Source of the DNA: Pelomonas sp. Root1217
GTDB lineage: Bacteria > Pseudomonadota > Gammaproteobacteria > Burkholderiales > Burkholderiaceae_C
Direction of reading: 5' to 3'
DNA: 64,000 bases
Assembly (NCBI RefSeq): GCF_001425705.1
Contig: NZ_LMDC01000029.1
Coordinates: forward strand, 1 to 64,000
Numbering within the stretch: position 1 is the stretch's first letter; the number at the start of each line of letters is the position of its first letter. Of this stretch, positions 17,766 through 55,399 are shown in pieces. Below the pieces are notes generated by a model. The model did no database searches. It was not told the origin of the DNA and worked only from the letters and a program-made list of their open reading frames with translations. A program made the translations under genes and the position numbers.

Positions 17766-17841
17766 TGGTGCCGGCTATCGGATTCGAACTGATGACCTAC
17801 CGCTTACAAGGCGGTTGCTCTACCAACTGAGCTAAGCCGGC
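17766..17841 (-). tRNA. tRNA-Thr (anticodon TGT)
   Basis: A complete 76-base cloverleaf including an encoded CCA. The acceptor stem GCCGGCT/AGCCGGC is perfect, the D arm is GCTC/GAGC, the anticodon stem ACCGC/GCGGT holds the loop CTTGTAA (anticodon TGT, reading ACA), and TTCGAAT is the T loop. One A-C mismatch is seen at the fourth pair of the T stem (ATCAG/CCGAT). It is followed by a strong terminator. Confidence 0.97.
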
Positions 17842-41022: not shown

Positions 41023-41027
41023 CTCCT
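41023..41027 (-). promoter_or_regulatory. ribosome binding site supporting the GTG start at 41016
   Basis: AGGAG on the minus strand, six bases before GTG 41016 and overlapping the GH94 stop codon TAG (41026-41028). It supports translational coupling of the small membrane protein to the operon. Confidence 0.7.
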
Positions 41028-44000
41028 AGCCAATCTCTATCGTCAGCCGCGACAGGCTGCCCGGCACAGGCCGCGCCAGCGCCAGCGCACCCATGCGGTA
41101 GGCGTGCGCGCGCCGTGTGGCCGGCAGCTCGGCGCCCGCCTCGTCCCGCACCCGCTCCACGCCATGCCCACGCGAGCTGACGCGATAGGTCAGCTCAAAG
41201 CGCAGGTCCGCCAGCGTCAGCTGCACATTGAGCCCATCGAGCACCGCCGGCATGACCGGGTCGATGACCAGAGCGCCCTGCTCCAGCCTCAGCCCGAGCA
41301 GCGAGTTGATGACCAAGCCCAGCGCGATGCCCGGGCCGCTGGAATAGATGCGCCAGCCGCCGTCCAGCGCCACTTCGCCGGCCAGCGCACGGCCGTACTC
41401 GGCCTGGGCAACGTAGCGGTCGGGGAAGGCGGCATCGGAGCTGGAGTAATAGCAATTGGCCTGGCGCCGGCTCGCGCTGGGCACGCGGTCCGTCAGCGCG
41501 ATGGGATGCGCCAGCGTCAGCGCTTCCAGGAAAGCCTCGGCATGACCGAGCTGGGCCAGCATCTGCGCATAGCGCAGATGGGCATGCATGTACATGATGC
41601 CGATCTCGCGGCCGAAGAAGGTGCTGGTCTCGGCGCGCTGGAACAGCTGCGACGGGCCGCCGCGATAGGGCAGCGGCGCGTCGAACAGGCGGGCACCATC
41701 GGGGCCCTTCAGATGCTGCTCGATCAGCGCGGCCTGGATGGCGGCCTGCTCAGGGGTGAAGAGCTCGTCGATGACGGCATGCATCATCGGCAGCAGGCTG
41801 TAGCGCAGGCCGGTGCGGGTGTCGCGCGGGTGGATCCACAGCTCACGCTCGCCCTGCTCGGGAAAGAGGGCGTAGCCGGCGACGACATCGTCCTGCACCA
41901 GCAGGCGCTGGAACTCGGCGCGCACGCCCATGGCCTCGGCGGTCAGCGCAGCGGCGTCATGCGCTCGGCCGATCTGCGTGAAGGCCGTCGCCAGCGTATG
42001 CAGCATCTGGTGGTGCAGCGTGACCGTCCAGGCGCTGCAAAGGCGCTCGCGCAGTGCCGGGTCAGCCGGCTGCAGCGAGTCGTTCCAGTCGCCATGCCAG
42101 TAGGCGGCCAGCCCCGTGCCGGGCACGACGCGCTGGCGGATCAGCGCCAGCGCCTGCTCGACATGCGCCACCAGCGAGGCCGGCTCGCCGCGGTGGAAGG
42201 GCAGCACCTCGTCAAGCAGGCCGGCGTCGCCGCTGGCGATCAGGTATTGCGCCAGGCCCAGCAGCGGCCAGAAGACGATGTCACCATGCGAGTCGCCGGC
42301 ACGGATCTTGGCCTCGCGCTCGAAGAACATGAACCACTGCGGCCAATCGCCATCCGGGTTCTGGTTGCTGAAGACACGCAGCAGCAGATCGCGCACCGGT
42401 GCGGTCTGGCCCAGGGCCAAAAGCATTTCCAGCGGCCCTTGGCAGACGTCGCGCGTGCCCCAGCCACCGCCGGAGTACTGCTCCAGGCCACGCGGCGACA
42501 GGTAGTGCACCAGGGCGTTGTGGACATACCAGGGCAGGATGTCGCTCAGCTGAGCCAGAACCGGGTGCTGCCAATGCGGCAGCGTCAGTGGCTGGACCGG
42601 TGGCGGCGCTGTCGCGATCAATTCGCCGCGCAACGTCAGTGAAAAGGCCTGGGCCGGCGAGAAATCGAGGCAGACCAGTGGCTCGCCGCGGCTGACGCCG
42701 TCATCAAACAGCCGGCCGTCGTCGCCGACTATGGATATGCCCGGTGCTTCGATGACCAGGCCGCCGCCGGGAAAGCGCTCCGCCAGCTCGCTGCTTTCGG
42801 GCGGCGTGATGCGCAGCCGGCTGCCACTGTGCTCCCACACAGGCTTGACGGGCGCGGCACCATCATCACCGCCCACGGCCAGATTGAAGCTGGCGCGCAG
42901 GCGCAACGCGCGGCCCCTGAGCACCCGCACGCTCAGTGCCATCGCATCCGGCGCGGCGCCGGCCGAGGCAACGACCTCGATGACGCCGGCGTCAAAGGCA
43001 TAGAGCCAGCGGCAAAGCTGCGGCTGGATTTCGAAGGCCGACGGCAGGCCGAGCAGCAGCCAGTCGCTCACCTGCGGCTGCACGAACAGCCGCAGGCCGG
43101 CCGTGCAAAACAGGCCGAGCAGGCTGCGCTGCGTGGACAGCAGGCGGTTGATGCTGACGTGGCCCTGGGTCAGCATGGAATGGAAGACACCGCCCATCCA
43201 GCAGGTGGAAGTCAACGCGCCTTCGTCGGGCACGAGATGGTCTCCGCTGCGCAGGATGTGGCCGTGCGGGCGCTGCACCCGCAGTTCCTTGGCGCGCAGC
43301 ACGACGTGGGTGGCCTCGCCGGTGAAGAAACTCAAGCGCTGGCCGCCCTGCCATTCCTCATGGCGGCGCTCGCCGGGGACGTAGGTGGCCAGGTCCTCGT
43401 CGCTGAAGTCTCGGCTGGCCAGCATCGGCGCGCTGGCGAACAGGCTGGTCGCTGGTGCGAGGCCTGGCGCGTCCAGCATGTTGGACGGCTGGGCCTCGGG
43501 CAAGGCCAGCAGCGTGGGCAGGCAGGCCAGATCGGCGTCGCTGCTGGCCTCGGGATGGTGGGCCTGCAACGCCAGGAAAAATCCCGTCGCCGTGCGCTCA
43601 CCGGGCGCGAGCGGCAGGGCCCCGTCCTGCAAGGCGACCATGGCGTGCTCGTGCTGCAGGCGCTGACCCGGCAGCCCGTTCAGCAGGCCGGGGGGCAAAC
43701 CGCCCTCACGCGCGGCGTGGCCCCAGACCTGGCTGGCGTCGGTCGCAAAGCTCTCGGCGCGGCGCAACGAACCGGCCAGCAGCCAGGGGTGCTTGCCAGC
43801 CTGCGCCTGGTTCTGGCGCGCGGCCAGCAGCGCGCCGTGGCCAGGGTGCCGCAGTGGCTGCAGGTCGATGTAGTGGCTGACATAGAACTCGTTGGTGCGC
43901 GCGGCGCCATAGTCGGCCAGGCCGACGTCCTGGACCAGCACGGGCGCGATTTCGCATGGCGTGTCGCGCACGTTGGCGGCTTGCAGATGCCAGAACAGCA

Positions 44001-44307
44001 CGGGTTCGCTGGCGGCCAAACGCAGCTGCAGTCGCAGGGCCAGGCCGTCCCATTCCCCGCGCATCTCGAAGGCGTCTTCGTCGGCGTGAACGCTGAGCGG
44101 CGAGCGCGGGCCGAGCAGCGGCGCGACGCGCCAATCGCCGCCCGCATCGCGCCGGCGCAACCAGATATTGGCCGGCCCGCCTTCCAGCTCGTTGCCGGGG
44201 AAAAGGTTGAGCATCAGCGCCGGCCCGAACATCAGGCGGCGCAGCGCGCCGTGGGACAGCAGCTCGACCTCGAGGCCGGCGGGGTTGCTAACAGAGTGAA
44301 CAGTCAT
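41026..44307 (-). CDS. GH94 family glycoside phosphorylase, 1,2-beta-oligoglucan phosphorylase-like
   Basis: A 1093-residue cytoplasmic enzyme without signal peptide. The GH94 catalytic motif HGDWNDSL carries D740 to D743; D743 corresponds to the general acid of cellobiose phosphorylases. An N-terminal super-sandwich-like half (residues 1-580) precedes an (alpha/alpha)6 barrel (LPWYVHNALVHYLSPRGLEQ, then GGGWGTRDVCQGPLEMLLAL). Cellobiose phosphorylases are about 810 residues; the length here matches 1,2-beta-oligoglucan phosphorylases of about 1110. The enzyme would split sophoro-oligosaccharides with phosphate to glucose-1-phosphate. Four-base overlap with the esterase gene. The family is sure, the specificity inferred. 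Confidence 0.8.
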   Translation of the reverse strand: MTVHSVSNPAGLEVELLSHGALRRLMFGPALMLNLFPGNELEGGPANIWLRRRDAGGDWRVAPLLGPRSPLSVHADEDAFEMRGEWDGLALRLQLRLAASEPVLFWHLQAANVRDTPCEIAPVLVQDVGLADYGAARTNEFYVSHYIDLQPLRHPGHGALLAARQNQAQAGKHPWLLAGSLRRAESFATDASQVWGHAAREGGLPPGLLNGLPGQRLQHEHAMVALQDGALPLAPGERTATGFFLALQAHHPEASSDADLACLPTLLALPEAQPSNMLDAPGLAPATSLFASAPMLASRDFSDEDLATYVPGERRHEEWQGGQRLSFFTGEATHVVLRAKELRVQRPHGHILRSGDHLVPDEGALTSTCWMGGVFHSMLTQGHVSINRLLSTQRSLLGLFCTAGLRLFVQPQVSDWLLLGLPSAFEIQPQLCRWLYAFDAGVIEVVASAGAAPDAMALSVRVLRGRALRLRASFNLAVGGDDGAAPVKPVWEHSGSRLRITPPESSELAERFPGGGLVIEAPGISIVGDDGRLFDDGVSRGEPLVCLDFSPAQAFSLTLRGELIATAPPPVQPLTLPHWQHPVLAQLSDILPWYVHNALVHYLSPRGLEQYSGGGWGTRDVCQGPLEMLLALGQTAPVRDLLLRVFSNQNPDGDWPQWFMFFEREAKIRAGDSHGDIVFWPLLGLAQYLIASGDAGLLDEVLPFHRGEPASLVAHVEQALALIRQRVVPGTGLAAYWHGDWNDSLQPADPALRERLCSAWTVTLHHQMLHTLATAFTQIGRAHDAAALTAEAMGVRAEFQRLLVQDDVVAGYALFPEQGERELWIHPRDTRTGLRYSLLPMMHAVIDELFTPEQAAIQAALIEQHLKGPDGARLFDAPLPYRGGPSQLFQRAETSTFFGREIGIMYMHAHLRYAQMLAQLGHAEAFLEALTLAHPIALTDRVPSASRRQANCYYSSSDAAFPDRYVAQAEYGRALAGEVALDGGWRIYSSGPGIALGLVINSLLGLRLEQGALVIDPVMPAVLDGLNVQLTLADLRFELTYRVSSRGHGVERVRDEAGAELPATRRAHAYRMGALALARPVPGSLSRLTIEIG

Positions 44308-45026
44308 GTTTGCTTCTGCGCCAACAGCCAGGGCAGCAGATCGGGGTCTCGATAGGCGGGCGTCCAGGAGTCGTGGCCGACACCCGGGTAGATGGTCAGC
44401 GACGCCGTGCCGCCCGCCGCGCGCAGCGCTTCGACGCAGGCGATGTGCGGCGCCAGCGGCACGGCCTGGTCCTTGTCGCCGTGATAGGCGCGCACCGGCA
44501 CGTTGCGCATGGCGGCCACCTTGGTCGGGTCACCGAAGCCGCACACCGGCGCGATGGCGGCGAGGTCGCGCGGATGGGCCGTGGCCCAATGCCACACGCC
44601 GTAGCCACCGAGGCTCAAGCCCGTACCGAGGCAGCGTTGCGGGTCGACATTCAGGCGTGCCTTCAGTCCCACCAGCAGCTTGTGTAGTCGCTCGGGGTCC
44701 CAGCGCGCACCATCTTCGAGCTGCGGGCTGACGATGATGAGCTGCTGGTTGACACCGCGCGCAGCCCACGACGGCGGGCCGTGGATCTTGACCTTCTCCA
44801 GGTCGGTGCCGCGCTCGCCGGAGCCGTGCAGGAAGATCAGCAGCGGCCAGCGCTCGCTGCGCTGTGTGTACTCGCGAGGCAGCGATACCCACATGCGCTC
44901 GCCTTCAAGCTCCCAGGCGCGCTGCTCGCCGGCCGCAAGTCCTGGCGGCGGTGGGGGCGGCAGGGCCGCGCAGGCACTGAGCAGCGCAGGCGCCGTCAGC
45001 AGAAGTTGGCGGCGGGAAATCGTCAT
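44304..45026 (-). CDS. lipoprotein alpha/beta-hydrolase (esterase)
   Basis: A 240-residue hydrolase with a twin-arginine-like start (MTISRRQLLLTAPALLSACA) and a lipobox LSAC, so a periplasm-facing lipoprotein is likely. The oxyanion segment is LLIFLHGSGERG, the nucleophile elbow GTGLSLGGYGVW, the acid HGDKDQAVP and the histidine GVGHDSW; the fold resembles feruloyl-esterase/PHB depolymerase-like proteins. Overlaps its neighbours by four bases on both sides. Within the glucan operon it could remove ester substituents (succinyl, acetyl) from the imported polymer, which is inference. Confidence 0.75.
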   Translation of the reverse strand: MTISRRQLLLTAPALLSACAALPPPPPPGLAAGEQRAWELEGERMWVSLPREYTQRSERWPLLIFLHGSGERGTDLEKVKIHGPPSWAARGVNQQLIIVSPQLEDGARWDPERLHKLLVGLKARLNVDPQRCLGTGLSLGGYGVWHWATAHPRDLAAIAPVCGFGDPTKVAAMRNVPVRAYHGDKDQAVPLAPHIACVEALRAAGGTASLTIYPGVGHDSWTPAYRDPDLLPWLLAQKQT

Positions 45027-47977
45027 GGCGTGGGCTCCAGCTGGATGGTCACGGCGTTGGCAGGCAGGGGCAGCTCGCGGCCCTGCCAGCTCAGCCCCTG
45101 GGACTCGACGTTAGCGCGCGGCAGCGGTGCGTCGCCAGCCCAGGCCAGGCGCAGCTCGCCGGGCAGGCGTTCGGGGCGGCGGTCGATGTGCAGTGTCCAG
45201 CCGCCATCGGCGCGCCTGAGCAGGCGGTAGTCGAGGCGGCCCCAGGCGGTGGACAGGCCGGCCACGCCGATATCGCCGGCCTGGCGCCAGGCCGGCGACA
45301 AACCCGCGCCGAGCACGAGGCTGCCGGTGGATTCACGCTCAAAGGCCAGCAGGTCCAGCGCGGCGCGTAGATAGTCAGACGAGATCCAGGCATGCGGCAT
45401 ATCACCGAGGAAACGGGCCTCGCGCGCATCGGGCCGCACCACCTCGGCCCACTGGTTCCATCCCATCGGGCGCTGGTACGTGAAGAACCAGGCCAGCAGC
45501 CGGTGCGCTTCATCCACCCAACCCAGGCGCACCAGGGCACTGACATTGCGCAGCTCGTAAGGCGTGTAGTCCGCCCATGGTTTGCGGCCGCTGATGCGGG
45601 CTTCGGCCTCGGCAACGTAGCGGTCAAACGTGCCGCGCAGCAACTCGGGTGGCAGCTTGTCAGCCTGGGCCGGGTTGAGGGCCATGGTCGTCGACGTCGC
45701 GTCGAAGTCGCCCCGATCGGCGGCACCGGCGATATGGTCCAGTTTGTAGTGCTTGGCCGTCGCGGCGATGGATGCATTCAGGTCGGCTTCGAACTCATCA
45801 CGCGACACCGCCCAGCGCACGGCCTGTGCGGTGTCGCCGAGAGCCTGGGCGATCTGCACCGCGTCCTTGTAGCCGCGCAGGGCCCAGAAGTCGTCCCAAT
45901 AGGAATAGGCCGGCTTGTCGGCATAGCCCTCGTGGCTGATGGACGGCGGCATCAGCCCTTTGAAGCGCGCGTCTGCACCGGGTTTGCGCTCACTCTGGCG
46001 CCGCGCCTCCATCCACGCGACGACGCGCTGTACCTTGGGCCGGTGGCGCTCCAGCAGCGCGCGGTCCTGGGTGTGACGCCACAGCTCGGCCACGGCGAAC
46101 AGGTACTGGCCGTGGCTGTCGTTCTCGACGACGGGGTCGGCGCCGCGCCGGTCAACGCAACAAGGCACCTTGCCGGATTCGAAGATGTAGCCGCCGTACC
46201 AGTCGACAAACTCGCGCGCGGCCTGGGCTTCGCCCATGCGCACCAGGCCGGCCACCATCATGGCGCCGTCGCGCACCCAGGAGCGCGCATAGGAGCGCGT
46301 TCCCGGCCGCAGCGCCGGGCCGTCGCGAGACACCAGGATTTGCGCCAACGCGCTGCGCATGGTGTCGGCAACAGGCTGGGCCTGGGGCGGCAACACGAGC
46401 TCCAGAGCACCCAGGCGGTCGCGCCAGTGGGCGGCGGCCACGGCGAGGCGCGTGTCGAGGGCGCCGGCATCGCCGCCCGTCACCCAACCAAGGCTGCGCG
46501 CCTCGCCGGGTGCGAGTTCGATGTCAAAGCGCATCAGCGCCGAGGGCAGTTGTTCGGCATCTGCCAATTGCGTGAGCGGCGGCGCCTGCAGCAGCGTGGC
46601 GAGGCCGGGGCCGGCACTCCATGATGCGGCACGCACTTCGGCAGGCGCCTCGCGCGGCTGGATGGTCAGCCCGGCCGCGGTGAGCTTGCCATCAGCCCAA
46701 GCCAGCGTGGGCAGCGGACTGATGCCGCCCTGGGTCGACAGGAACTGCTGCGGCGGGTTGACCTGCCAGGGGCGCAATGCCAGCAGCAGCGAGTAGCGCT
46801 GTGGCTTGCTGGTCGGGTTGCGCAGCGTGTAGCGGGCCAGCAGCTGCGGCGCCTTGGGCGGCCCGTCGGCGCCGGCTTCAACGCGCAGCTCGACGTCTGC
46901 ATGCCGCCATTGCACGACCGGCAAGGCGTGTTCGATGAGGCTGTGCTCGGTGCGCACCTGGGCCCAGGTGACGAGACGGCCGTCCGCGAGCCTGATGACG
47001 GGCTCGATGCTCGGGCCACCGCGGGTCAGCTCGATGGCACCGTCTTCGCTGACCAGGCCCGAACGCTGAGCGCCGCCATCCACGCCGGCGACGGTCCAGT
47101 AGTTCTGTTCGCCGAGGAAGGCGCGGGGCAGGTCGCCACGCGGCAGCGATCTGGCTATTTCGGCGACGGCGGCATTGCGGTCGGGCCAGCGGGCTGCATC
47201 CCGCAACTCCATCTCGGGCGGCTTCTTGCCCTCGTAGCGCAGCCGGATCCAGCGCCATTCCTGCTCGCCGAGAAACAGCGCGCGGCCGGGTTGGGTGGAC
47301 AGCGTCTTCCAGCGCCGGTTGTCGTCGGAGACTTCGACGCGCGTGGCCGTGCCGCTGGCAAACCACAGGCCGTTGAACTCGCGCAAGGTCTGGAAGTCCA
47401 GCGTCATCTCACTGGCACCCAGCCTGCGGCGCGGCTCCGGCCAGGCTTTGGGCGCGGGCTCGCGCGGCTCCATGCCAACTGCACCGACGCACAAGGCCCC
47501 TGCCCCGCCGCCCTGCTGGCCGGCGACGACGACGAACTCGATGAACTGGCTTCGCCTGAGCACCCGGTCTTCGGCGGGCCCCCAAGCGAAGGCGACATGG
47601 CGGCGCTTGAAGCGCATCTCGGTCAGCGTGTCGGGCAGGGCCAGCGCGGGGCGATTGATCCACCAGACGTTGTCGCCGCTGGCGTTGACGAACTTGATCT
47701 GCACGTCATTGCCGGCGCCCTTGCCCTTGAGCTGGGTGGTCAGCGCAAAGTCGGCCGGCCAGTCGAGCGGCAGCTCGCGACGCAGTACGGCATAGCCCGA
47801 CACGCCGGCAAAGTCGTAGTCGAGGCAGAGGCTGTCGTCACGGGCGTCCCGGCGCAAGCTTGCTTTGACCTGGTCCGAGGCGGTGACCTTCCACGGTGCG
47901 GCGTTCTTCATGTCGTCGAGGACGGCGGCAGCGGTCAGCTGTGCCGACAGCATCAGTGCGAGGACAAGCGCCTTCAT
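45023..47977 (-). CDS. exported multidomain protein with an (alpha/alpha)6-like putative glycosidase domain
   Basis: A 984-residue protein with a signal peptide (MKALVLALMLSAQLTAAAV). Residues about 20-175 look like a CBM11/jelly-roll carbohydrate-binding domain (DFALTTQLKGKGAGNDVQIK); 180-270 like a discoidin/F5-8C module (TRVEVSDDNRRWKTLSTQPG); the rest includes a beta-sandwich and a six-hairpin region with RSWVRDGAMM (D570), YSYWDDFWALRGYKDA near 690 and DFDATSTTMALNP near 755. The acidic residues in these segments could be catalytic. No known family can be named from sequence alone. It shares one base with the upstream permease stop and overlaps the esterase by four. Confidence 0.7.
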   Translation of the reverse strand: MKALVLALMLSAQLTAAAVLDDMKNAAPWKVTASDQVKASLRRDARDDSLCLDYDFAGVSGYAVLRRELPLDWPADFALTTQLKGKGAGNDVQIKFVNASGDNVWWINRPALALPDTLTEMRFKRRHVAFAWGPAEDRVLRRSQFIEFVVVAGQQGGGAGALCVGAVGMEPREPAPKAWPEPRRRLGASEMTLDFQTLREFNGLWFASGTATRVEVSDDNRRWKTLSTQPGRALFLGEQEWRWIRLRYEGKKPPEMELRDAARWPDRNAAVAEIARSLPRGDLPRAFLGEQNYWTVAGVDGGAQRSGLVSEDGAIELTRGGPSIEPVIRLADGRLVTWAQVRTEHSLIEHALPVVQWRHADVELRVEAGADGPPKAPQLLARYTLRNPTSKPQRYSLLLALRPWQVNPPQQFLSTQGGISPLPTLAWADGKLTAAGLTIQPREAPAEVRAASWSAGPGLATLLQAPPLTQLADAEQLPSALMRFDIELAPGEARSLGWVTGGDAGALDTRLAVAAAHWRDRLGALELVLPPQAQPVADTMRSALAQILVSRDGPALRPGTRSYARSWVRDGAMMVAGLVRMGEAQAAREFVDWYGGYIFESGKVPCCVDRRGADPVVENDSHGQYLFAVAELWRHTQDRALLERHRPKVQRVVAWMEARRQSERKPGADARFKGLMPPSISHEGYADKPAYSYWDDFWALRGYKDAVQIAQALGDTAQAVRWAVSRDEFEADLNASIAATAKHYKLDHIAGAADRGDFDATSTTMALNPAQADKLPPELLRGTFDRYVAEAEARISGRKPWADYTPYELRNVSALVRLGWVDEAHRLLAWFFTYQRPMGWNQWAEVVRPDAREARFLGDMPHAWISSDYLRAALDLLAFERESTGSLVLGAGLSPAWRQAGDIGVAGLSTAWGRLDYRLLRRADGGWTLHIDRRPERLPGELRLAWAGDAPLPRANVESQGLSWQGRELPLPANAVTIQLEPTP

Positions 47978-48789
47978 CACTTCACGCTTCCCATCAACAA
48001 CCCCTGCATGTAGTACCTCTGCAGCGCCACAAACAGCGCCAGCACCGGCAGCACCGTGATGACCGCCCCGGCCATCATCAGCTCGCTGTCGTTCACATGC
48101 TCCCGCGACAACGCAGCCAATGCGACTGGCAGCGTGTGCATCTCGCCGTCGGTCAACACGATCAACGGCCACATGAAGTCGTTCCAACTTCCTAAAAAGG
48201 CAAACACCGCCAGCGTCACCAACACCGGCTTCAACGTCGGCAGCACGATGTTCCAGAAGATGCGCCACTCCCCTGCCCCATCCAACCGAGCCGCCTCCAG
48301 CAATTCATCCGGCACCCCTCGCGCGTACTGCCGCACAAGGAAGATGCCAAAGATCCCCGCCATGCTCGGAATCAACACGCCGATCCATGTGTTCACCAGG
48401 CCCATGCCCTTGAGCATCAGGAACAGCGGCAGCATCGCCACCTGCCCCGGGATGACAAGCGCCGCGATCAGCAGCCCGAACACCCGATCGCGATGGCGAA
48501 AGCGCAGCTTGGCAAACGAGTAGCCGGCCAGCGTGTTGAAGCTCACCGACATCAACGTGCTCACCACGGCCAGCCCCAGGCTGTTGACGAAGGCTCGCTT
48601 CAAGCCACCGTCGCCGAGCAACTGGCGGTAGTGCACCAGCGTCGGGTCGTGCGGGACCAGCGGCGGCGGCAGGCTGGAGGCGCTGCCGGCCGGCATCAGC
48701 GACACGCAGACCATCCACACCAGCGGGAAGGCCGCCAGTGCAGCAAAGGCCCACAGCAAGCCATTGATGAGCAGGGCCTGGGGCTTCAT
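47977..48789 (-). CDS. sugar ABC transporter permease, MalG-like
   Basis: A 270-residue inner-membrane permease with six helices. The cytoplasmic EAA loop EAARLDGAGEWRIFWNIVLP contacts the ATPase, and the C-terminus YYMQGLLMGSVK is typical of MalG/LacG proteins. It overlaps the MalF-like gene by four bases. It forms the membrane channel with that protein for oligosaccharide import in the glucan operon. Confidence 0.9.
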   Translation of the reverse strand: MKPQALLINGLLWAFAALAAFPLVWMVCVSLMPAGSASSLPPPLVPHDPTLVHYRQLLGDGGLKRAFVNSLGLAVVSTLMSVSFNTLAGYSFAKLRFRHRDRVFGLLIAALVIPGQVAMLPLFLMLKGMGLVNTWIGVLIPSMAGIFGIFLVRQYARGVPDELLEAARLDGAGEWRIFWNIVLPTLKPVLVTLAVFAFLGSWNDFMWPLIVLTDGEMHTLPVALAALSREHVNDSELMMAGAVITVLPVLALFVALQRYYMQGLLMGSVK

Positions 48790-49682
48790 GCGCCCTCCCC
48801 CGTCAGCCGCCGCTGCAAGGCAATCAGGCCCTTGCTAACCACCACGATGATGACGAAGAGCACGAAGGCCACCGCCGAGGCCAGGCCCAGGTTCCACCAC
48901 TTGAAGCCTTCCTCGTACATCAGGTAGAGCACGCTGACGGTGCTTTGCAGCGGCCCGCCCTGGGTCATCACATAGGGCTCGGCAAACAGCTGGAAATAGC
49001 CGGCCGTCGTCAGGATGGTGACCATCAGCAGCGTCGGCGCAATGCTGGCCAGCGTGATGTGGCGGAACTGCGCCCAGCTACGCGCGCCGTCCAGCCGCGC
49101 GGCTTCGTACAAGTCATGCGGCACGGCCTGCAGGGCAGCGATGAAGATGATCATGTTGCCGCCGAAGTTCTTCCAGGCGGCGAACAGGATGATGGTGGGC
49201 ATGGACCAGTGCGGGTCGCCCAGCCAGTCCACCGGGTCCAGGCCCAGCGACTGCAGCGTGTAATTCACCAGGCCGTACTTGACGTGAAAAAGATAGCGCC
49301 AGATGACGGCGACGGCGACCAGCGTGGTCACCACGGGGGCGAACAGTGCGGTGCGCAGCAGCGGCTTGAAGCGCACCAGCTTGCTCTGCAGCAGCACGGC
49401 CGCGGCCAGCGACACGCCGATGGACAGCGGCACGCCAAGCACGACGAAGTAGAGCGTGTTGCCCAGCGCCTTCCAGAACAGCGGCAGGCTCAGCACGTGG
49501 ACATAGTTGTCCCAACCCTGCCAGCGCAGGTTGCGCAGGTCGGCCAGGGCATAGATGTCGAAGTCGGTCAGGCTCAGGGCCAGGCCGGCGAAGACGGGCA
49601 CGCCGAAGAACAGCGCGATGACGATCAGCGCCGGGGCAGCGAAGGCCCAGGCGGCGAGGGACTCGCGACCACTGTGCTTCAT
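48786..49682 (-). CDS. sugar ABC transporter permease, MalF-like
   Basis: A 298-residue permease with six helices, the EAA loop EAARLDGARSWAQFRHITLA, and the AEPYVMTQGGPLQSTVSVLY segment seen in MalF/UgpA-like proteins. ATG 49682 overlaps the binding-protein stop by four bases. The open frame upstream is a shadow. Same operon as the binding protein and the second permease; no ATPase gene is adjacent. Confidence 0.9.
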   Translation of the reverse strand: MKHSGRESLAAWAFAAPALIVIALFFGVPVFAGLALSLTDFDIYALADLRNLRWQGWDNYVHVLSLPLFWKALGNTLYFVVLGVPLSIGVSLAAAVLLQSKLVRFKPLLRTALFAPVVTTLVAVAVIWRYLFHVKYGLVNYTLQSLGLDPVDWLGDPHWSMPTIILFAAWKNFGGNMIIFIAALQAVPHDLYEAARLDGARSWAQFRHITLASIAPTLLMVTILTTAGYFQLFAEPYVMTQGGPLQSTVSVLYLMYEEGFKWWNLGLASAVAFVLFVIIVVVSKGLIALQRRLTGEGA

Positions 49683-50950
49683 GCGGCGGTCTTTCGGTCC
49701 AGCATCCAGCGACGCTTCTCGAGGATACCGTCGACGAGCGCGTCCAACGCACGCACGGTGGTGTCGAGGTCGGTCACGCCGTGCACGGCGCGCGTGGCCG
49801 CGAGCTGCATCTCCTTCTCGATGCGCTCCCATTCCGGCACGGCCGGCGCCGCGCGCACACGCTCAAGCTGGCGGCGGAAGGCGGCAGCGTGGCGATCCTC
49901 GGCCAGCGTGGCGCCATTCAAAGGCAGCGCCCACGCGCTGCGCCGGGCCGGCAGGTCGCCCGTCAGGCGGTAGAACTCGAGCTGCACGTCGGGCCGGCTC
50001 AGGTAGCTGATCAGCGCCCAGACTTCGGGTTTGTGGCGCGAGCGCTTGAACATGGCGAGGCTGGCACCACCGGCGATGGAAACGCCGGGGCCGTCCGGGC
50101 CAGGCAGCTCGGCGGTGATCCAGGCATTGGCCAGTTCGGCCGGCAGGCGGCGCTTGAACTCGCCGATGTCCCAGGGCCCCGACATGTAGAAGGCGAAGTT
50201 GCCGCGGCCGAATTCCTGCCAGAGGTTGCCGATCTGCACCTCGCTGACACCCGGCGCCTCGCCACGCTGGAAGCGCTCCAGGTAGAAGCCCAGGGCGGTG
50301 CGAAAGCCCGGCGACGAAAAGTTGCCGTAGCGGCCGCCGTCGCGCAGCACCTCGCCCGGCTGCTGCAGGGCCAGGGCCAGCAGCGGCGCGGATTCGTTGG
50401 TGGGCAGCAGGATGGGCTTGTCCATGCCGTGCTGGCGCAGCTGAGCCAGTGCCGCGCGCCAGTCGTCCCAGCTGACGGGCATGGACGGGATGCCGGCCTT
50501 GGCCAGCAGATCCTGGCGCACGAACAACAGCCGTGTGTCGACATACCAGGGCAGGCCCACGCGCTGGCCGGCGGGCGCGTTGGTGGCCCAGATGCCGTCG
50601 AAATAGTCGCCTGCGGCCAGCGTCGGCGTGCGCGCCAGCCACGGCTCCAGCGGCGCCAGCGCGCCCAAGGCCTGCATCTCGGGTAGCCATGTGTTGCCGA
50701 CCTGGGCGAGGTCGGGCGTGGCGTCGCCTGCGAAGGCGGTCAGCAGCTTCTCGTGCGCAGCCGTCCACGGCAACTGCTCGACCTTGACGCGCACGCCGGG
50801 GTGCTCGCGCTCGAAGCGGGGCATCAGCTCGGCCACGACCTCGCTCTCGCGGCCCATGGCCCAGAAGCGCAGCGTGGTCATGCCGCTGTCGCGTGCGCAG
50901 CCGGTCAGGGCGGCGGCGGCCGTAGCGGTGAGCAGGTCGCGGCGGCGCAT
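49679..50950 (-). CDS. extracellular sugar-binding lipoprotein of an ABC transporter
   Basis: A 423-residue family 1 solute-binding protein. The lipobox is LTGC (C18), after a short RRR-containing signal. Conserved features are FEREHPGVRVKVEQLPW near residue 50, GDATPDLAQVGNTWLPEM, and FYMSGPWDIGEF in the ligand cleft. It would deliver oligosaccharides to the MalFG-like permeases. Its start is one base from the stop of the GH144-like gene, with which it is translationally coupled. Confidence 0.9.
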   Translation of the reverse strand: MRRRDLLTATAAAALTGCARDSGMTTLRFWAMGRESEVVAELMPRFEREHPGVRVKVEQLPWTAAHEKLLTAFAGDATPDLAQVGNTWLPEMQALGALAPLEPWLARTPTLAAGDYFDGIWATNAPAGQRVGLPWYVDTRLLFVRQDLLAKAGIPSMPVSWDDWRAALAQLRQHGMDKPILLPTNESAPLLALALQQPGEVLRDGGRYGNFSSPGFRTALGFYLERFQRGEAPGVSEVQIGNLWQEFGRGNFAFYMSGPWDIGEFKRRLPAELANAWITAELPGPDGPGVSIAGGASLAMFKRSRHKPEVWALISYLSRPDVQLEFYRLTGDLPARRSAWALPLNGATLAEDRHAAAFRRQLERVRAAPAVPEWERIEKEMQLAATRAVHGVTDLDTTVRALDALVDGILEKRRWMLDRKTAA

Positions 50951-50951
50951 G

Positions 50952-52373
50952 TCAGCCGAGCCAACCCCCGGTGAAGCCCGCGCGCTTCAGGCCCCGGACC
51001 AGATGCGCGTTCTTGCGCATCGCCTGCCACACCAGCTCGCCTCGATGGTTGCCCATCATCGCCAGCAGCGGGCCCTGGTCGATGCCGAGCATGTCGGTGT
51101 CCACCCAGCCCTTGCCCGGCTCGATGCGGCCATGCGTGAGGCGCACGTCGGGGAAGTTGAAGCTGGGGTTGAAGGCATCCCAGAAGCCGTAGCGGCCGAA
51201 GGTGTGGGGATGGCGCGCCTTGATGGCCATCAGCGCCGGGATGACGATCTCGGGCGCGAAGGCGATGGAGCTGCCGGCCGCGTAAGGCGCCAGCGTGCCG
51301 TCGTCATGCAGGCCCATGCCGCGGCCGGCATAGCTGATGAAGCGGCGCTTCACGGTCTTGCCAACGGTGGTGGTGTATTGAAGCGAGATGTCGGCCGGGC
51401 CGTCGCTGGCGCTGACGCCCCAGACCTCGGTGCTGTAGCCCTGCCAGCCCAACGGGTTGGCCTGGGCATAGGCCTGTTGCACATAGGTCGCGCGGCGCGA
51501 GTTCTCGAAATAGTCCAGGCCCTTGTCACGCATGTAGGCGTCACGGATGCCGCGGAAGTCCACCCAGCAGTGGGTGAACTGGTGGCCGAACAGTGGCGGG
51601 AAGCGCAACAAGGTCTGACCATAGCTCTCGCCCCAACTCTGCTGGTCGTAGGTGCTGGTCCAGGCGTCCCAAGCCTCGGGCTTGACCGGATGGGTCGGCG
51701 AACCGAGTGCCAGCAGATAGACCAGCATCGCCTCGTTGTAGCCCTTCCAGTCGCTGCGGATGAAGCCCTTCTCCGGCGACCAGCCGTGGCTGATGGACGG
51801 CGGGCGCACCTGGGCCCAGGTCCAGTCGACGCGGCCATAGAGCTCGTCCGCCAGTTTGCGGATGGCGGCCTCGTCGGCATGTTCGCCGTCAAAGAAGCTC
51901 TGGGCATGCAGGGCGCCCATCAGCAGCAGAGCCGTGTCGACGGTGGAGAGCTCGCAGCGGTCGAAGCGCAGGCCCTCCTTCATGTCGAGGAAGTGATAGA
52001 AAAAGCCCTTGTGGCCCGCCACGCCGGTCTTGCCCGGGCCTTGGGGCAGGCCGGCGAAGAAGCGCAGCGTCGTCAACGTACGCTGGGCGGCCTGCGCTCG
52101 CGTGATGTAGCCGCGCGCCACGCCGACGGGATAGGCGCTCAGCGCGAAGCCGACGGCGGCGATGCTGGCGAATGAAGGGGTGGGCCAGCGGTCGGGCGCC
52201 AGGCCCGTTTTCTCGTCTGTCGTCTCCCAGAAGAAGTCGAAGGTGCGGCGCTCAAGGTCCGCGAGGAAGGCGTCGGCGGCTGGCGCGGGCGCCTCTGCCC
52301 AGCTGGGCAGGTTGGCGGCCAGGGCAAGGCCGGCGCCGTGGGCCAGGACGGCGCGTCGGGTCAGCAAACTCAT
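50952..52373 (-). CDS. exported glycoamylase-domain protein, GH144-like endo-beta-1,2-glucanase
   Basis: A 473-residue protein with a signal peptide (TRRAVLAHGAGLALAANLPS, possibly Tat type). From residue 30 it has the PF10091 glycoamylase domain: ERRTFDFFWETTDEKTGLAP, then YHFLDMKEGLRFDRCELSTV, WSPEKGFIRSDWKGYNEAML, and FGHQFTHCWVDFRGIRDAYM. The carbohydrate-active family with this domain is GH144, whose characterised members are endo-beta-1,2-glucanases; the domain name is historical. It would cut glucan in the periplasm. 51 bases behind the TonB receptor gene. Confidence 0.82.
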   Translation of the reverse strand: MSLLTRRAVLAHGAGLALAANLPSWAEAPAPAADAFLADLERRTFDFFWETTDEKTGLAPDRWPTPSFASIAAVGFALSAYPVGVARGYITRAQAAQRTLTTLRFFAGLPQGPGKTGVAGHKGFFYHFLDMKEGLRFDRCELSTVDTALLLMGALHAQSFFDGEHADEAAIRKLADELYGRVDWTWAQVRPPSISHGWSPEKGFIRSDWKGYNEAMLVYLLALGSPTHPVKPEAWDAWTSTYDQQSWGESYGQTLLRFPPLFGHQFTHCWVDFRGIRDAYMRDKGLDYFENSRRATYVQQAYAQANPLGWQGYSTEVWGVSASDGPADISLQYTTTVGKTVKRRFISYAGRGMGLHDDGTLAPYAAGSSIAFAPEIVIPALMAIKARHPHTFGRYGFWDAFNPSFNFPDVRLTHGRIEPGKGWVDTDMLGIDQGPLLAMMGNHRGELVWQAMRKNAHLVRGLKRAGFTGGWLG

Positions 52374-52424: not shown

Positions 52425-55358
52425 TCAGAACGTGTAGTTCACGCCCAGCTTGAACTGCCGCATCGAGCCGCGCACGCCAGTCTTGGTGTCGAAGTGGCCG
52501 TTGTCGCCGCCGAGTGCGTTCTGCGGGGGCGTGCTGGGGCCGCCGACCCAGTCGTCGTAATAGCCCCAATTGGCGGTGTTGAACAGGTTCAGCACGTCGG
52601 CACGGACCTGCAATTCACCGCCGTACACCTTGAAGTTCTTCGACAGGGCCATGTCGAGCTGCTTGAAGGTGTCGGAGCCGCGCGCGACGGCCCTGCAGCC
52701 GGTGGGACCGTCAAAGCCGGTGTGGCAGTCCACCACGCGTCGCGGCTGGCCATCGCCGACGGTCAGCTTGCCGGACAGCTGCATGCCCCAGGGCAGGCGG
52801 TCCATCAGCCCGCCGACGACGAGGCGGTTCTTCTCCGCATCCTTGGCCGGGTGGAAGCCGTGCACGGCCTTGCCATAGGTCCAGTCGAAGATTTCATCCG
52901 ACCATTCGTTGTTGGTGGTCTGCGCGTTGGTGTGCGTGTAGGCCACGGTCATGCTCCAGCCGCTGGCCGGCGTGTAGGGCTTTTCCAACGAAAGGAAGAT
53001 GCTGGTGGCCTTGTTCTCGCCGACGAAGTCGCCCAGCACGATGGTGCCGGAGTTGCGCGGCGCGCCACCCCAGAACGGGTCGACGTTGTTGGCGTTGCCG
53101 AAGCCGCCGTTGGGGTCGCGGTTGCCGTTGAACCAGAAGAACTGGTTCTTGGCGTGGATGTTCGACACCGCAACGTCCATGTTCCAGGTGCCCAGCGCCT
53201 GGCGCACACCCAGGCTCATCTGGTCGGCAAACGGCATCTTGAAGTTGTTCTTAATCATCCAGATCTCGCCGTTGGGCGCGGCGTTCTTCTGCAGTTCGTC
53301 CAGCGCGTTGTTGGCCATGCGGCGGTCGTAGCTGCGGCCCCAGCCGCCGTAGACCACGGTGGCCTTGTCGCCAAGCACGTCAAACGACGCACCGACGCGC
53401 GGCGCCAGCGCGCTCTTGTAGGGCTTGCGCGAGCTGCCGGTGGAGATGTAGTCGGCGATGTTGATGCCGCCCTTGGCCAGCGTCTGCACATAGGTCTGGC
53501 CGGCCGGCGCGGTGATGCCGGCGACGGTGCGTCCGTCCAGCGCGTTCAGCGTGGCGATGCGGTCGGCCGGCGTCACGTAGCTGTTGTTCAGCATGTTGTC
53601 TTCGTAGTCCCAGCGCGCACCAATGTTCAGTTCGAGCTGCTTGCTGAGCTTCCAGTCGTCCTGCAGGTAGATGCCGTACTGGTTGTTCTTGAAGCTCGCC
53701 GAGGCGGTCGGGATGGGCAGGCGGATGTTGCACTGGTCGCTGGACAGGCCGCTGCTACTGACGTTGGTGCCCGTGCAGGCGAGGCCGTTGAAGTAGGGCT
53801 GGCCGGTCGTCGTGTTCAGCACGGTGTCGATGGCCGCCACGCGGAAGGCGGTGCCGCTGAGGTCGTACTTCATTGCCTTGAACTGGACGCCGCCCTTGAT
53901 GACGTGGCCCGTGAGGCCCGTGTAGCTGAGGTCATCCTTCAGGTAGACACCACTCTGGCGCCGGTCCTGCGCGTTGGGCGAGCCGCCGGTGAAGAAGACG
54001 TCCTGGACGTTCTTGATCTCGTTGGTGGGCGAGTACTTGTAGCGTACCAGCGGGTCGGTGGAGTCCGACTGCGGGTTCCATTTCGAGCTTTCCCAGCCCA
54101 CGCGCGCCTCGTTGAGCCAGCTATCGCCGGAGTACTCGTGGGCGAGGTCGACGCGGTACTCGTTGTTGTTGTTGTTGATGGCCGTGCTGGGTGCGAAGCG
54201 GTCACCGTCGACCGAGTAGCTGGTCTCCTTGCGCAGCGTCATCGACAGGTCAAGGCGCTGGCGGTCGTCGATCTCGGCCGAGAGCTTGCTGAACAGCAGA
54301 TGCTCCTTGAACTGGCCCTTGAACGAGCCCTGCTGCGCGGCGATGGACGGCACGATGCCGGGATTGGTCGGGTACTTGTCCAGGTTGGACGCGGTCAGCT
54401 GGCGCGGCTTGTCGATGGACTTGCCGTCGTAGGCGACGAAGTAGTGCAGTGCGTCGGGCTTGATCGCACCGCCGATGCTGAAGCCGCCTTCGATCTGCTT
54501 GTACGAGGGGGGATCGATGTGATTGGCCTTGTCCTGCTCCTGGATCGGGCTCAAGGCCGTCCAGTTGCTACCGGTACGGTTGAAGTAGACGCTGCCATGG
54601 GTCTCGTTGCCGCCGGACTTGGTGACGGCGGCGATGGCGACGCTGGAGACCTGGTCGAACTCGGCCTTGTAGTTCTGCGTCAGCACGCGGTACTCGGCGA
54701 TGGCCGTCTGCGGGAAGGGGTTGCCCTGGCTGGTGTCCTGGCCGGTCAGGCCGCCGCGCAGGATGTTGTTCTTGTGGCCGACGCCGTCGATGAAAACGTT
54801 TACAGCGTCAATGTTTTGGGAACCCCCGCGCAGCCGCGTGTTGCCGCTGGCATCGGTGTCGAAGCGCACACCGGGCGCGAAGTCGGCGGCGGACAGGAAG
54901 TTGCGGGTGGCCTGCGGGATGGCCTCGATCATCCGGTTGGATACCGTGGTGCCAACCTGCGAGTCGATGACGCCCTGGCGCTGCGCGCTGCCCTGGATGA
55001 CGACGGTGCCGAGCTTGGCGTCGGTGCTGCCGAGGTCCAGCGTCGCGTTCTGGCCGACCGACAGCGTCACCTCGCTGCCGCTGCTGGCACCGCCGACGCG
55101 GATCTCGTAGGTGCCCGGGTTCAGGCCCAGCAGCACGTAGCTGCCATCCGGCAGGGTCTTGGCGCGATAAATGCCGCCGGTGCTCTTGTTGACGGCGATG
55201 ACATCGGTGCCGGCGGGCGCGGTGGTGCCCGCAGCGCTGATGGTGCCGCGTACGGTGGCATTGGACGACTGTGCCGAGGCCGCGCCGGCCAGCGCGAAAC
55301 AGACGGCCGTGGCCAGCGCCTGGCGGCGCCAGGGCGTGCGTGTGGATGGCTTGCTCAT
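52425..55358 (-). CDS. TonB-dependent receptor with carboxypeptidase-regulatory-like domain
   Basis: A 977-residue outer-membrane receptor: signal peptide ending in GAASAQ, a carboxypeptidase-regulatory-like domain at about 30-110 (LPDGSYVLLGLNPGTYEIRV), a TonB-box-like GTVVIQGSA, the plug (residues about 120-270, with NVFIDGVGHKN), and a 22-strand barrel ending in aromatic KLGVNYTF. Such Oar-like receptors import large carbohydrates in proteobacteria, where no SusD partner is needed. ATG 55358 has AGGAGA upstream. 41 bases behind lacI and in the same operon. Confidence 0.88.
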   Translation of the reverse strand: MSKPSTRTPWRRQALATAVCFALAGAASAQSSNATVRGTISAAGTTAPAGTDVIAVNKSTGGIYRAKTLPDGSYVLLGLNPGTYEIRVGGASSGSEVTLSVGQNATLDLGSTDAKLGTVVIQGSAQRQGVIDSQVGTTVSNRMIEAIPQATRNFLSAADFAPGVRFDTDASGNTRLRGGSQNIDAVNVFIDGVGHKNNILRGGLTGQDTSQGNPFPQTAIAEYRVLTQNYKAEFDQVSSVAIAAVTKSGGNETHGSVYFNRTGSNWTALSPIQEQDKANHIDPPSYKQIEGGFSIGGAIKPDALHYFVAYDGKSIDKPRQLTASNLDKYPTNPGIVPSIAAQQGSFKGQFKEHLLFSKLSAEIDDRQRLDLSMTLRKETSYSVDGDRFAPSTAINNNNNEYRVDLAHEYSGDSWLNEARVGWESSKWNPQSDSTDPLVRYKYSPTNEIKNVQDVFFTGGSPNAQDRRQSGVYLKDDLSYTGLTGHVIKGGVQFKAMKYDLSGTAFRVAAIDTVLNTTTGQPYFNGLACTGTNVSSSGLSSDQCNIRLPIPTASASFKNNQYGIYLQDDWKLSKQLELNIGARWDYEDNMLNNSYVTPADRIATLNALDGRTVAGITAPAGQTYVQTLAKGGINIADYISTGSSRKPYKSALAPRVGASFDVLGDKATVVYGGWGRSYDRRMANNALDELQKNAAPNGEIWMIKNNFKMPFADQMSLGVRQALGTWNMDVAVSNIHAKNQFFWFNGNRDPNGGFGNANNVDPFWGGAPRNSGTIVLGDFVGENKATSIFLSLEKPYTPASGWSMTVAYTHTNAQTTNNEWSDEIFDWTYGKAVHGFHPAKDAEKNRLVVGGLMDRLPWGMQLSGKLTVGDGQPRRVVDCHTGFDGPTGCRAVARGSDTFKQLDMALSKNFKVYGGELQVRADVLNLFNTANWGYYDDWVGGPSTPPQNALGGDNGHFDTKTGVRGSMRQFKLGVNYTF
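54791..54804. promoter_or_regulatory. possible internal LacI-type operator in the TonB-receptor gene
   Basis: TGAAAACGTTTACA differs by one base from the 14-base core TGTAAACGTTTACA of the operator before the GH1 gene. It lies inside the receptor coding sequence and encodes the AVNVF part of the plug, so it could be an auxiliary operator or coincidence. About 3.0 kb from the main operator. Confidence 0.35.
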
Positions 55359-55399
55359 AGGTCCTTGTCTCCTGGTTGTGTACTGTGGTCTGGACGGGA

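Follow-up and report, generated by a model that had tools for sequence, protein, structure and literature searches.

What does a 984-residue protein, encoded in the middle of a beta-1,2-glucan operon of Pelomonas sp. Root1217, contribute to the use of that glucan? We addressed this question in a window of 64,000 nucleotides, the whole stretch of DNA that was analysed. An earlier note had proposed that the protein is a new glycoside hydrolase, for example an exo-acting sophorose-releasing or a debranching enzyme. The gene, its operon, the domain layout, the predicted fold and the conservation of residues make up the established part of the analysis, and the function proposed on top of them is graded below.

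The gene and its operon

The open reading frame was confirmed at 45023-47977 on the minus strand, with an N-terminus beginning MKALVL; translation of the plus strand of the same interval in frame 1 gave stop codons. The gene is present as a single copy in its own genome. Twelve of the 20 genomes compared from the genus, the gene's own genome among them, contain a match, and relatives are encoded on at least 571 genomic stretches, a distribution that ruled out a chance reading frame. The frame, its relatives and the structure model together led us to annotate the CDS as a putatively exported GH15-like (alpha/alpha)6 protein.

All genes of the operon lie on the minus strand, in the order GH1 beta-glucosidase (56412-57755, start picked by eye), LacI-type regulator (55400-56404, start likewise picked by eye), TonB-dependent receptor (52425-55421, PF25183/PF00593 with CarboxypepD_reg, start approximate), GH144 (50952-52373, PF10091), solute-binding protein (SBP; 49679-50950, PF01547), ABC permease 2 (48786-49682, PF00528), ABC permease 1 (47977-48789, PF00528), the target, an alpha/beta-hydrolase esterase-like protein (44304-45026, Pfam-level annotation) and a GH94 phosphorylase of the 1,2-beta-oligoglucan type (SOGP; 41026-44307, PF21958 and PF21250). 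The target start shares one base with the stop of permease 1, its overlapping upstream neighbour (TGATG), and the target stop shares four bases with the esterase start (ATGA). The best PDB match of the GH144 protein is 8xul, the XCC2207 beta-1,2-glucanase, and the GH144 from the operon of a relative (locus L079) matches XCC2207 (XcSGL) across 461 residues. The GH144 type in the operon is thus that of a proven beta-1,2-glucanase, and the operon content points solely to beta-1,2-glucan, in whose uptake and breakdown the neighbouring genes presumably take part.

The glucan-operon setting proposed in the earlier note was borne out by synteny. Eighty loci were fetched and the 70 with at least 5.5 kb of upstream DNA were scored; 69 of these 70 had GH144, the SBP and both permeases upstream of the target and in the same orientation. 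GH1 was present in 26 of the 80 fetched loci. Among 399 genomes of the taxonomic family, a strong GH144 match (E below 1e-60, a cut of our own) occurred in 20 of 25 target-bearing genomes versus 19 of 374 target-free ones (Fisher p 1e-18). As a displacement test, we also searched 20 target-free GH144 stretches from 18 genomes, namely 17 of the 19 in which a strong GH144 occurs but the target is absent (all except G531 and G640) plus G427, in which the target lies elsewhere. No called gene of at least 150 aa on these stretches, several of which end at contig edges, matched the operon SBP, permeases or TonB receptor (blastp, E 1e-8), and these loci therefore look like other systems. On one of them (L251) no GH144 was present among the called genes.

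Domain layout, fold and family

The AlphaFold model of the target had a mean pLDDT of 89.3 and a pTM of 0.88. Residues 1-18 (47924-47977) form a leader that, read by eye, resembles a signal peptide, and the conserved family alignment starts after it at about residue 19; export, as the earlier note had it, and a periplasmic location are thus probable. The leader is followed by a CBM11-like jelly roll (about residues 19-178, 47444-47923; 6r3m, Z 16.4, 154 residues aligned, rmsd 3.7) and then, at about residues 183-262 (47192-47431), by a putative CBM32-like module of the discoidin or F5/8 type C kind. The latter was recognised through the family: PF00754 is found in 21 of the 28 members, at E-values down to 1.4e-13, and in a PDB profile search CBM32 chains aligned to profile positions 187-261 with E-values down to 2.3e-5. 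The target's own sequence gave no PF00754 match in the Pfam scan, and its model shows beta-strands in this region. A super-beta-sandwich domain (about residues 284-500, 46478-47128), an (alpha/alpha)6 barrel supported by model and structural comparison (residues 531-877, 45347-46387) and, in the model, a C-terminal beta domain (residues 886-984, 45026-45322) complete the protein. The jelly roll, the discoidin-like module and the (alpha/alpha)6 region had all been anticipated, as had three motifs, RSWVRDG (565-571), YWDDFWALRG (693-702) and DFDATSTTM (757-765), which are present and mostly kept across the 28 aligned family members, the target among them.

No Pfam or NCBIfam model reached its cut-off for the target. 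PF00723 (GH15) gave no match at E 1, PF10091 (GH144) gave none, PF17389 (GH78) scored 11.6 bits against a gathering cut-off of 24.5, and for GH65, GH116, GH125, GH100 and GH63 there was no Pfam match. Against NCBIfam TIGR01577 and NF041084 (oligosaccharide amylase and TreH1), which we take to be of GH15 type, the target scored 11.8 and 16.5 bits, with model cut-offs of about 820. The family as a whole was more informative: at E up to 0.1 the oligosaccharide amylase model matched 22 of the 28 members (best 6.7e-8) and TreH1 matched 17 (best 4.3e-5), making GH15-type models the most frequent NCBIfam matches. PF00723 itself matched six members (best E 0.028), and Bac_rhamnosid6H (PF17389) matched 19 at a threshold of E 1 (best 6.7e-5). 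The statement that the protein matches no named GH family therefore holds in that nothing passes a cut-off, and was too strong in view of the GH15-type matches among its relatives. That it is a new glycoside hydrolase is plausible.

A PDB search with the target sequence alone gave a single match at E 0.95. Searched with the model, Foldseek placed dextran dextrinase at ranks 1-3 (E 4e-19 to 1e-18) and mostly GH94 at ranks 4-19. In the VIA comparison dextran dextrinase 9ju0 was again best (Z 28.0, 539 residues aligned, spanning target residues 293-883), followed by a 5z3a-type isomaltose glucohydrolase (Z 26, about 313 residues); 1ug9 reached Z 25.0 over 533 residues. GH15 glucoamylase and glucodextranase, at 25.0, were level with other (alpha/alpha)6 families, which lay 2-4 Z units under the best match (GH65 26.2, rhamnosidases up to 26.0, GH116 25.7, GH125 up to 24.6, GH94 24.1).

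Profile comparison by hhalign covered GH15, GH78, GH37, GH133, GH94, GH144 and one GH100/GDE_C pair. The E-values are for single pairs, and the profiles held 30 sequences for GH15 (32 minus the fragments L125 and L132), three for GH78, one for GH133 and two for the GH100/GDE_C pair. The target family matched GH15 at E 1.8e-6 over 347 columns; GH78 (E 1.2e-6, 211 columns) and the two GH100/GDE_C-type proteins (E 1.3e-6, 99 columns) were as good. The operon GH144 showed no useful similarity (E 0.015 over 9 columns) and the GH94 SOGP was weakly similar (E 0.0026). Of three weak matches in the genome search (L039-L041, E about 1e-5), L039 and L040 proved to be of GH100/GDE_C type and to align just with residues about 560-658. 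A GH15-type enzyme is the top structural match, with other (alpha/alpha)6 families close behind, and the class assignment as GH15-like is fairly well supported.

Candidate active-site residues and proposed function

hhalign paired W315-x-R317-D318 of GH15 with W567, R569 and D570 of the target, and the GH15 base E608 (sequence L124) with E845 (45443-45445). W567-V-R569-D570 (46268-46279) hence corresponds to the GH15 motif that binds glucose in subsite -1. In the family alignment, whose 106 rows represent 96 distinct barrels, W567 and R569 are found in all 96 and D570 in 94; the base position E608 is kept in 29 of the 30 GH15 sequences. E683 (45929-45931) and E845 are each invariant in 96/96 distinct barrels, and D695 is invariant as well. 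E683 was not paired with the GH15 acid by hhalign; it was placed as the candidate general acid by loop and conservation. Its segment, SISHEGY, has H-E where GH15 has a W-E acid motif, and the next aligned Trp lies 15 positions from the acid in the target, against 16 in 22 of 29 GH15 sequences. In the AlphaFold model, with our own helix numbering, E683 lies in the alpha5-alpha6 loop and E845 in the alpha11-alpha12 loop, the loops that hold acid and base in GH15 (PMC12446779).

Judged from these alignments, D570 is not a catalyst: its GH15 counterpart is an aspartate that holds the glucose in subsite -1. The likely catalytic pair is E683 and E845; D695 may act as the acid in place of E683. The earlier choice of D570 with acidic residues near 690 and 755 missed this pair, although D695, which lies near 690, could still take part.

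Our preferred reading, to which we assign a probability of about 0.45, is that the target is a distant GH15-like, inverting alpha-glucosidase acting on the alpha-1,6 bond of alpha-1,6-cyclised beta-1,2-glucans or their fragments. Its two parts differ in strength: that the bond cut is an alpha-linkage is probable, and that it is the alpha-1,6 bond of a cyclised beta-1,2-glucan falls somewhat short of even odds. The TonB receptor would import beta-1,2-glucan into the periplasm and GH144 would cleave its beta-1,2 bonds. The target would be a periplasmic GH15-type hydrolase (clan GH-L-like), too remote to be filed in GH15, with two carbohydrate-binding modules that may grip the glucan. W567, R569 and D570 would bind glucose in subsite -1, E683 would protonate the glycosidic oxygen and E845 would activate water, giving inversion at the alpha-glucosidic bond. 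It would thereby remove the single alpha-1,6-glucosidic bond that GH144, GH1 and SOGP presumably cannot cut, and the beta-1,2-oligosaccharides so formed would be taken up by the ABC importer and handed on to GH1 or to the GH94 phosphorylase. For natural beta-1,2-glucans, the available part of a review gives the alpha-1,6 closure as the alpha-bond (PMC11842490). GH15 enzymes act on terminal glucose (PMC12446779), so the intact ring is an unlikely substrate unless the pocket is open, and the substrate would most likely be the alpha-1,6-containing fragments left by GH144. Of the two roles raised earlier, debranching is the favoured one.

Where the ring would come from bears on this reading. The MdoG (OpgG/OpgD) family was found in just 12 of 39 target-bearing genomes and was missing in 27 of 39, a set that holds at least three probable doubles with identical barrels (L044/L004, L045/L006 and L046/L005), and it was found in none of six genomes of the genus of the window, its own genome included. 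Most hosts would therefore have to obtain alpha-1,6-cyclised glucan from others. The same 27 genomes lend weight to a GH15-like alpha-glucosidase for another alpha-linkage (terminal alpha-glucosyl caps, alpha-1,2, alpha-1,4 or trehalose-like), which we regard as the main competitor, at appreciably lower odds. GH15 spans alpha-1,4, alpha-1,6 and alpha,alpha-1,1 bonds (PMC12446779), the TreH1 trehalase model is second in number of family matches, and the GH65 structural match is an alpha-1,2-glucosidase. The operon, however, points to beta-1,2-glucan only, and the two top structural neighbours cut alpha-1,6 bonds: isomaltose glucohydrolase, a GH15 member, and dextran dextrinase, a GH15 homologue that also acts on alpha-1,4 bonds (PMC12446779). 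Dextran dextrinase is a retaining transglucosylase that makes dextran, and the GH15 mechanism cannot be read from sequence alone (PMC12446779). Both points favour a GH15-fold retaining transglucosylase that moves alpha-glucosyl units without hydrolysis. We consider it improbable, as the importer, the glucanase and the phosphorylase of the operon seem to call for hydrolysis and no donor for synthesis is evident.

An exo-acting beta-1,2-glucanase freeing sophorose or glucose from GH144 products would suit the operon position, and the beta-glucoside enzymes GH94 and GH116 share a similar fold. We consider it unlikely: the profiles favour GH15 over GH144 and SOGP, the GH15 subsite -1 motif and base are aligned and kept, and beta-1,2-oligosaccharides should already be handled by GH1 and SOGP. 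The sophorose-releasing role put forward in the earlier note is disfavoured on these grounds. The GH78 profile match, the Bac_rhamnosid6H matches and the Z-scores of rhamnosidases could indicate a GH78- or GH125-like enzyme that removes rhamnose, mannose or some other decoration that is not glucose. The GH78 alignment, however, spans residues 595-828 only, without the W-x-R-D motif and E845. The GH78 acid, which we take to be the last residue of an R-D-E motif, would fall on G571, and the remaining operon parts are glucan-specific, leaving this reading with a slim chance. Slimmer still is that of a non-catalytic glucan-binding protein that passes substrate to the SBP. Two carbohydrate-binding modules would fit such a role, as would the loss of D570 in two copies from genomes without strong GH144 (L053, E; L056, G); the invariance of E683 and E845 speaks against it.

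Significance and relation to known systems

We tentatively suggest, at odds clearly below even, that the target founds a new GH family within the GH15 superfamily, one whose dedicated task is to cut the alpha-1,6 linkage in cyclised beta-1,2-glucans. No enzyme degrading this bond was found in the available parts of the open-access literature, a scope in which a family known to CAZy alone could be missed. The alpha-1,6-cyclised ring has a key role in virulence of X. campestris (PMC11842490). If the proposal is correct, bacteria of several proteobacterial lineages feed on or recycle the ring-shaped glucans known from Xanthomonas, Ralstonia and Cereibacter, the substrate is a glycan used by a plant pathogen to evade plant immunity, and the protein would be a tool enzyme for the analysis of alpha-1,6-cyclised beta-1,2-glucans. 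With a widespread, strongly conserved gene beside a proven beta-1,2-glucanase type, a single protein and a single substrate are enough to test the missing catabolic step.

Among known systems, GH186 OpgD of Xanthomonas synthesises alpha-1,6-cyclised beta-1,2-glucan (PMC11228985). It concerns the bond proposed as the target's substrate but is biosynthetic, and its MdoG family is missing from most target-bearing genomes. GH144 XcSGL, GH94 SOGP and GH1 are operon neighbours in the beta-1,2-glucan pathway and not relatives. GH78, GH65, GH100/GDE_C, GH94 and other (alpha/alpha)6 families share the fold; GH78 and the GH100/GDE_C pair also reach hhalign E-values of about 1e-6, but their alignments span part of the barrel, with E845 outside. 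Dextran dextrinase is the top match in both structural comparisons, with just 15 % identity over the alignment. Members of GH15 (glucoamylase, glucodextranase AgGD, isomaltose glucohydrolase KfIG and TreH1 trehalase) share with the target the super-beta-sandwich and (alpha/alpha)6 barrel, a layout common to other families, together with W-x-R-D, a Glu in the alpha11-alpha12 loop and, with E683 as the candidate acid, a Glu in the alpha5-alpha6 loop. The target differs from them in lying below the PF00723 cut-off, in its acid segment, SISHEGY against W-E of the GH15 set, and in the CBM11-like and discoidin modules that it carries in front.

An exported GH15-like protein

The 984-residue open reading frame at 45023-47977 (minus strand) is real. 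An earlier note had proposed that its exported product may be a new glycoside hydrolase, and the motifs it cited (RSWVRDG, YWDDFWALRG and DFDATSTTM) were confirmed in the sequence. Pfam and NCBIfam gave no above-cut-off match for this protein itself, and open-access literature searches, made without any name for the family, found no paper describing it. Among the 28 aligned family members, the NCBIfam oligosaccharide amylase model matched 22 (best 6.7e-8) and TreH1 matched 17; we take both models to be GH15-type.

The AlphaFold model (28-sequence input, mean pLDDT 89.3, pTM 0.88) places a super-β-sandwich at residues 284-500, an (α/α)6 barrel at 531-877 and a C-terminal β-domain at 886-984. 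Residues 19-276, modelled separately (pLDDT 94.2), gave a CBM11-like first module (Z 16.4 over 154 residues, rmsd 3.7, to 6r3m, an entry containing a mixed-linkage β-glucan tetrasaccharide). The second module is discoidin-like, as judged from family members. A barrel loop of this exported protein carries vicinal cysteines (P-C-C, residues 605-607, window 46157-46165), invariant in 105/105 alignment rows.

In Foldseek, the best match to the model was dextran dextrinase (E 4e-19), and most of the hits ranked below it were GH94 enzymes. Dextran dextrinase was also the top VIA match (Z 28.0, 539 residues, rmsd 3.6), with chains 5z3a-e and 7c24-25 next (Z about 26, about 313 residues); 5Z3A is the Kribbella isomaltose glucohydrolase (PMC12446779). 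GH65, GH116, rhamnosidases, GH125, invertases, GH63 and GH94 lay at Z 24-26. GH15 glucoamylase and glucodextranase (Z 25.0) were tied with these other (α/α)6 families, and therefore the fold alone cannot pick the family.

Profile comparison used hhalign with the 106-row family alignment as query, the better of two query cuts being reported. Values were 1.8e-6 for GH15 (347 columns), 1.2e-6 for GH78 (211 columns) and 1.3e-6 for two GH100/GDE_C-type proteins (99 columns), then 0.002 for GH133, 0.003 for SOGP, 0.015 for GH144 and 0.045 for GH37, with unrelated controls (SBP, TonB and GH1 alignments) at 0.11-0.5. The GH78 alignment covers neither the W-x-R-D motif nor E845, and among the hhalign alignments viewed only that with GH15 reached E845 through the barrel. 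Our verdict is that the family sits at the edge of GH15; a GH15-like enzyme class is fairly well supported.

Candidate catalytic residues

W567-x-R569-D570 and E845 paired in hhalign with W315-x-R317-D318 and the base E608 of GH15 (numbering of L124, a GH15-set sequence), where W, R, D and E are conserved in 29, 30, 29 and 29 of 30. As described in PMC12446779, the motif Asp of GH15 bonds O4 and O6 of a glucose unit, the acid lies in the α5-α6 loop and the base in the α11-α12 loop. E683 and E845 fall in loops 663-688 and 833-862 of the AlphaFold model, which by our own helix numbering would be the acid and base loops. W567, R569, E683 and E845 are invariant in all 96 distinct barrels and D570 is kept in 94, both exceptions (E in locus L053, G in L056) being from genomes of one genus, g148, without strong GH144. 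E683 was left unpaired with the GH15 acid by hhalign, and D695, likewise invariant in the family, is a possible acid instead. The acid motif itself is H-E here, in contrast to W-E in GH15.

Distribution and operon

The family is real and widespread: in a scan of one-genome-per-species contigs, at least 571 stretches encode a relative. The best 80, retained as loci for operon comparison, come from Roseateles/Pelomonas, Ideonella, Duganella, Luteimonas, Lysobacter, Stenotrophomonas, Pseudoxanthomonas, Brevundimonas and others. The gene is single-copy in its own genome, is present in 12 of 20 genomes of the genus, and has matches in 28 of 399 genomes of the taxonomic family (E 0.001; 25 close relatives at E < 1e-100, three weak) and in 2 of 300 of the order sample, its own genome being one.

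Every gene from GH1 (56412-57755) through SOGP (41026-44307) runs in the same direction. The start of the GH15-like gene shares one base with the upstream permease stop and its stop shares four with the esterase start; ATGA overlaps also occur at the SBP/permease, permease/permease and esterase/SOGP junctions. The esterase, a small alpha/beta-hydrolase with a leader-like N-terminus (44304-45026) coupled to both neighbours, has counterparts in some Roseateles and Ideonella operons and might strip glucans of succinyl or acetyl substituents. The sole tRNA found within the window is a tRNA-Thr (tgt; 17766-17841, minus strand).

Seventy of the best 80 loci had at least 5.5 kb of upstream sequence; GH144, SBP and both permeases lie upstream on the same strand in 69, L056 being the sole exception, and a TonB receptor match was present in 67. 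SOGP lies downstream in at least 17 of the 80 and GH1 nearby in at least 26, both lower bounds because flanks stop at 8 kb or contig edges. A representative downstream gene in Duganella encodes a GH94 protein; in the Xanthomonas-related group, representative genes close to the operon encode glucokinase, 6-phosphogluconate dehydratase, KDPG aldolase, G6PDH and a 6-phosphogluconolactonase-type protein. Strong GH144 (E < 1e-60) was found in 20 of 25 target-bearing genomes versus 19 of 374 others in the taxonomic-family sample; four of the five without it belong to g148 and the fifth, G697, is in 670 contigs. The family is thus closely tied to an operon for β-1,2-glucan import.

Several variants were also seen. 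At L113 (11899-16203) and in Duganella relatives, a protein of 1261-1434 aa that contains GH94 domains stands downstream at the place of SOGP in Roseateles. The target copies at the Roseateles loci L051, L053 and L056, which are the very genes also listed as L021, L023 and L024, come from genomes without strong GH144 and share a different downstream gene set; the operon is absent from the 8 kb upstream of L056, and contig ends cut the upstream side of L051 and L053. Besides the operon GH144, a second match to PF10091 (GH144-type) occurs in the window's own genome; in many relatives of the taxonomic-family sample such a match falls within a frame of about 2900 aa, which is as long as a cyclic glucan synthase.

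Possible substrate

GH15 enzymes hydrolyse terminal α-glucosides (PMC12446779). The α-bond that PMC11842490 describes in natural β-1,2-glucans is the single α-1,6 bond closing the rings (13, 16 or 18 glucoses) that Ralstonia, Xanthomonas and Cereibacter produce, and the OpgD product resists β-glucosidase alone (PMC11228985). GH144, GH1 and SOGP in one bacterium would leave an α-1,6-linked remnant uncut, a gap that the GH15-like protein fits. Both of its nearest structural neighbours, dextran dextrinase and isomaltose glucohydrolase, act on α-1,6 bonds, and we infer that the substrate may be the α-1,6 bond of cyclised β-1,2-glucan or its remnant. Two points count against the α-1,6 ring. The enzyme would be exo-acting, and therefore an intact ring should stay unopened. 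The MdoG family was found in 12 of 39 target-bearing genomes, all 12 Lysobacteraceae (33 of the best 80 loci plus six genus genomes, at least three pairs probably being one species twice), and was absent from the six genomes of the window's genus tested; most hosts would therefore eat glucan made by others. An α-linkage other than α-1,6 may be the one that is cut.

The β-1,2-glucan setting itself can be compared with Xanthomonas. The window GH144 matched 8xul (XCC2207) at E 1e-168, and for the GH144 of the operon at locus L079 the match spans 461 residues (E 1e-301). XCC2207, also called XcSGL, has been characterised as a β-1,2-glucanase (PMC12102758), and its numerical neighbour XCC2208, described as a TonB-dependent receptor that lacks a canonical plug (PMC1790865), is consistent with the same gene order as in the operon.
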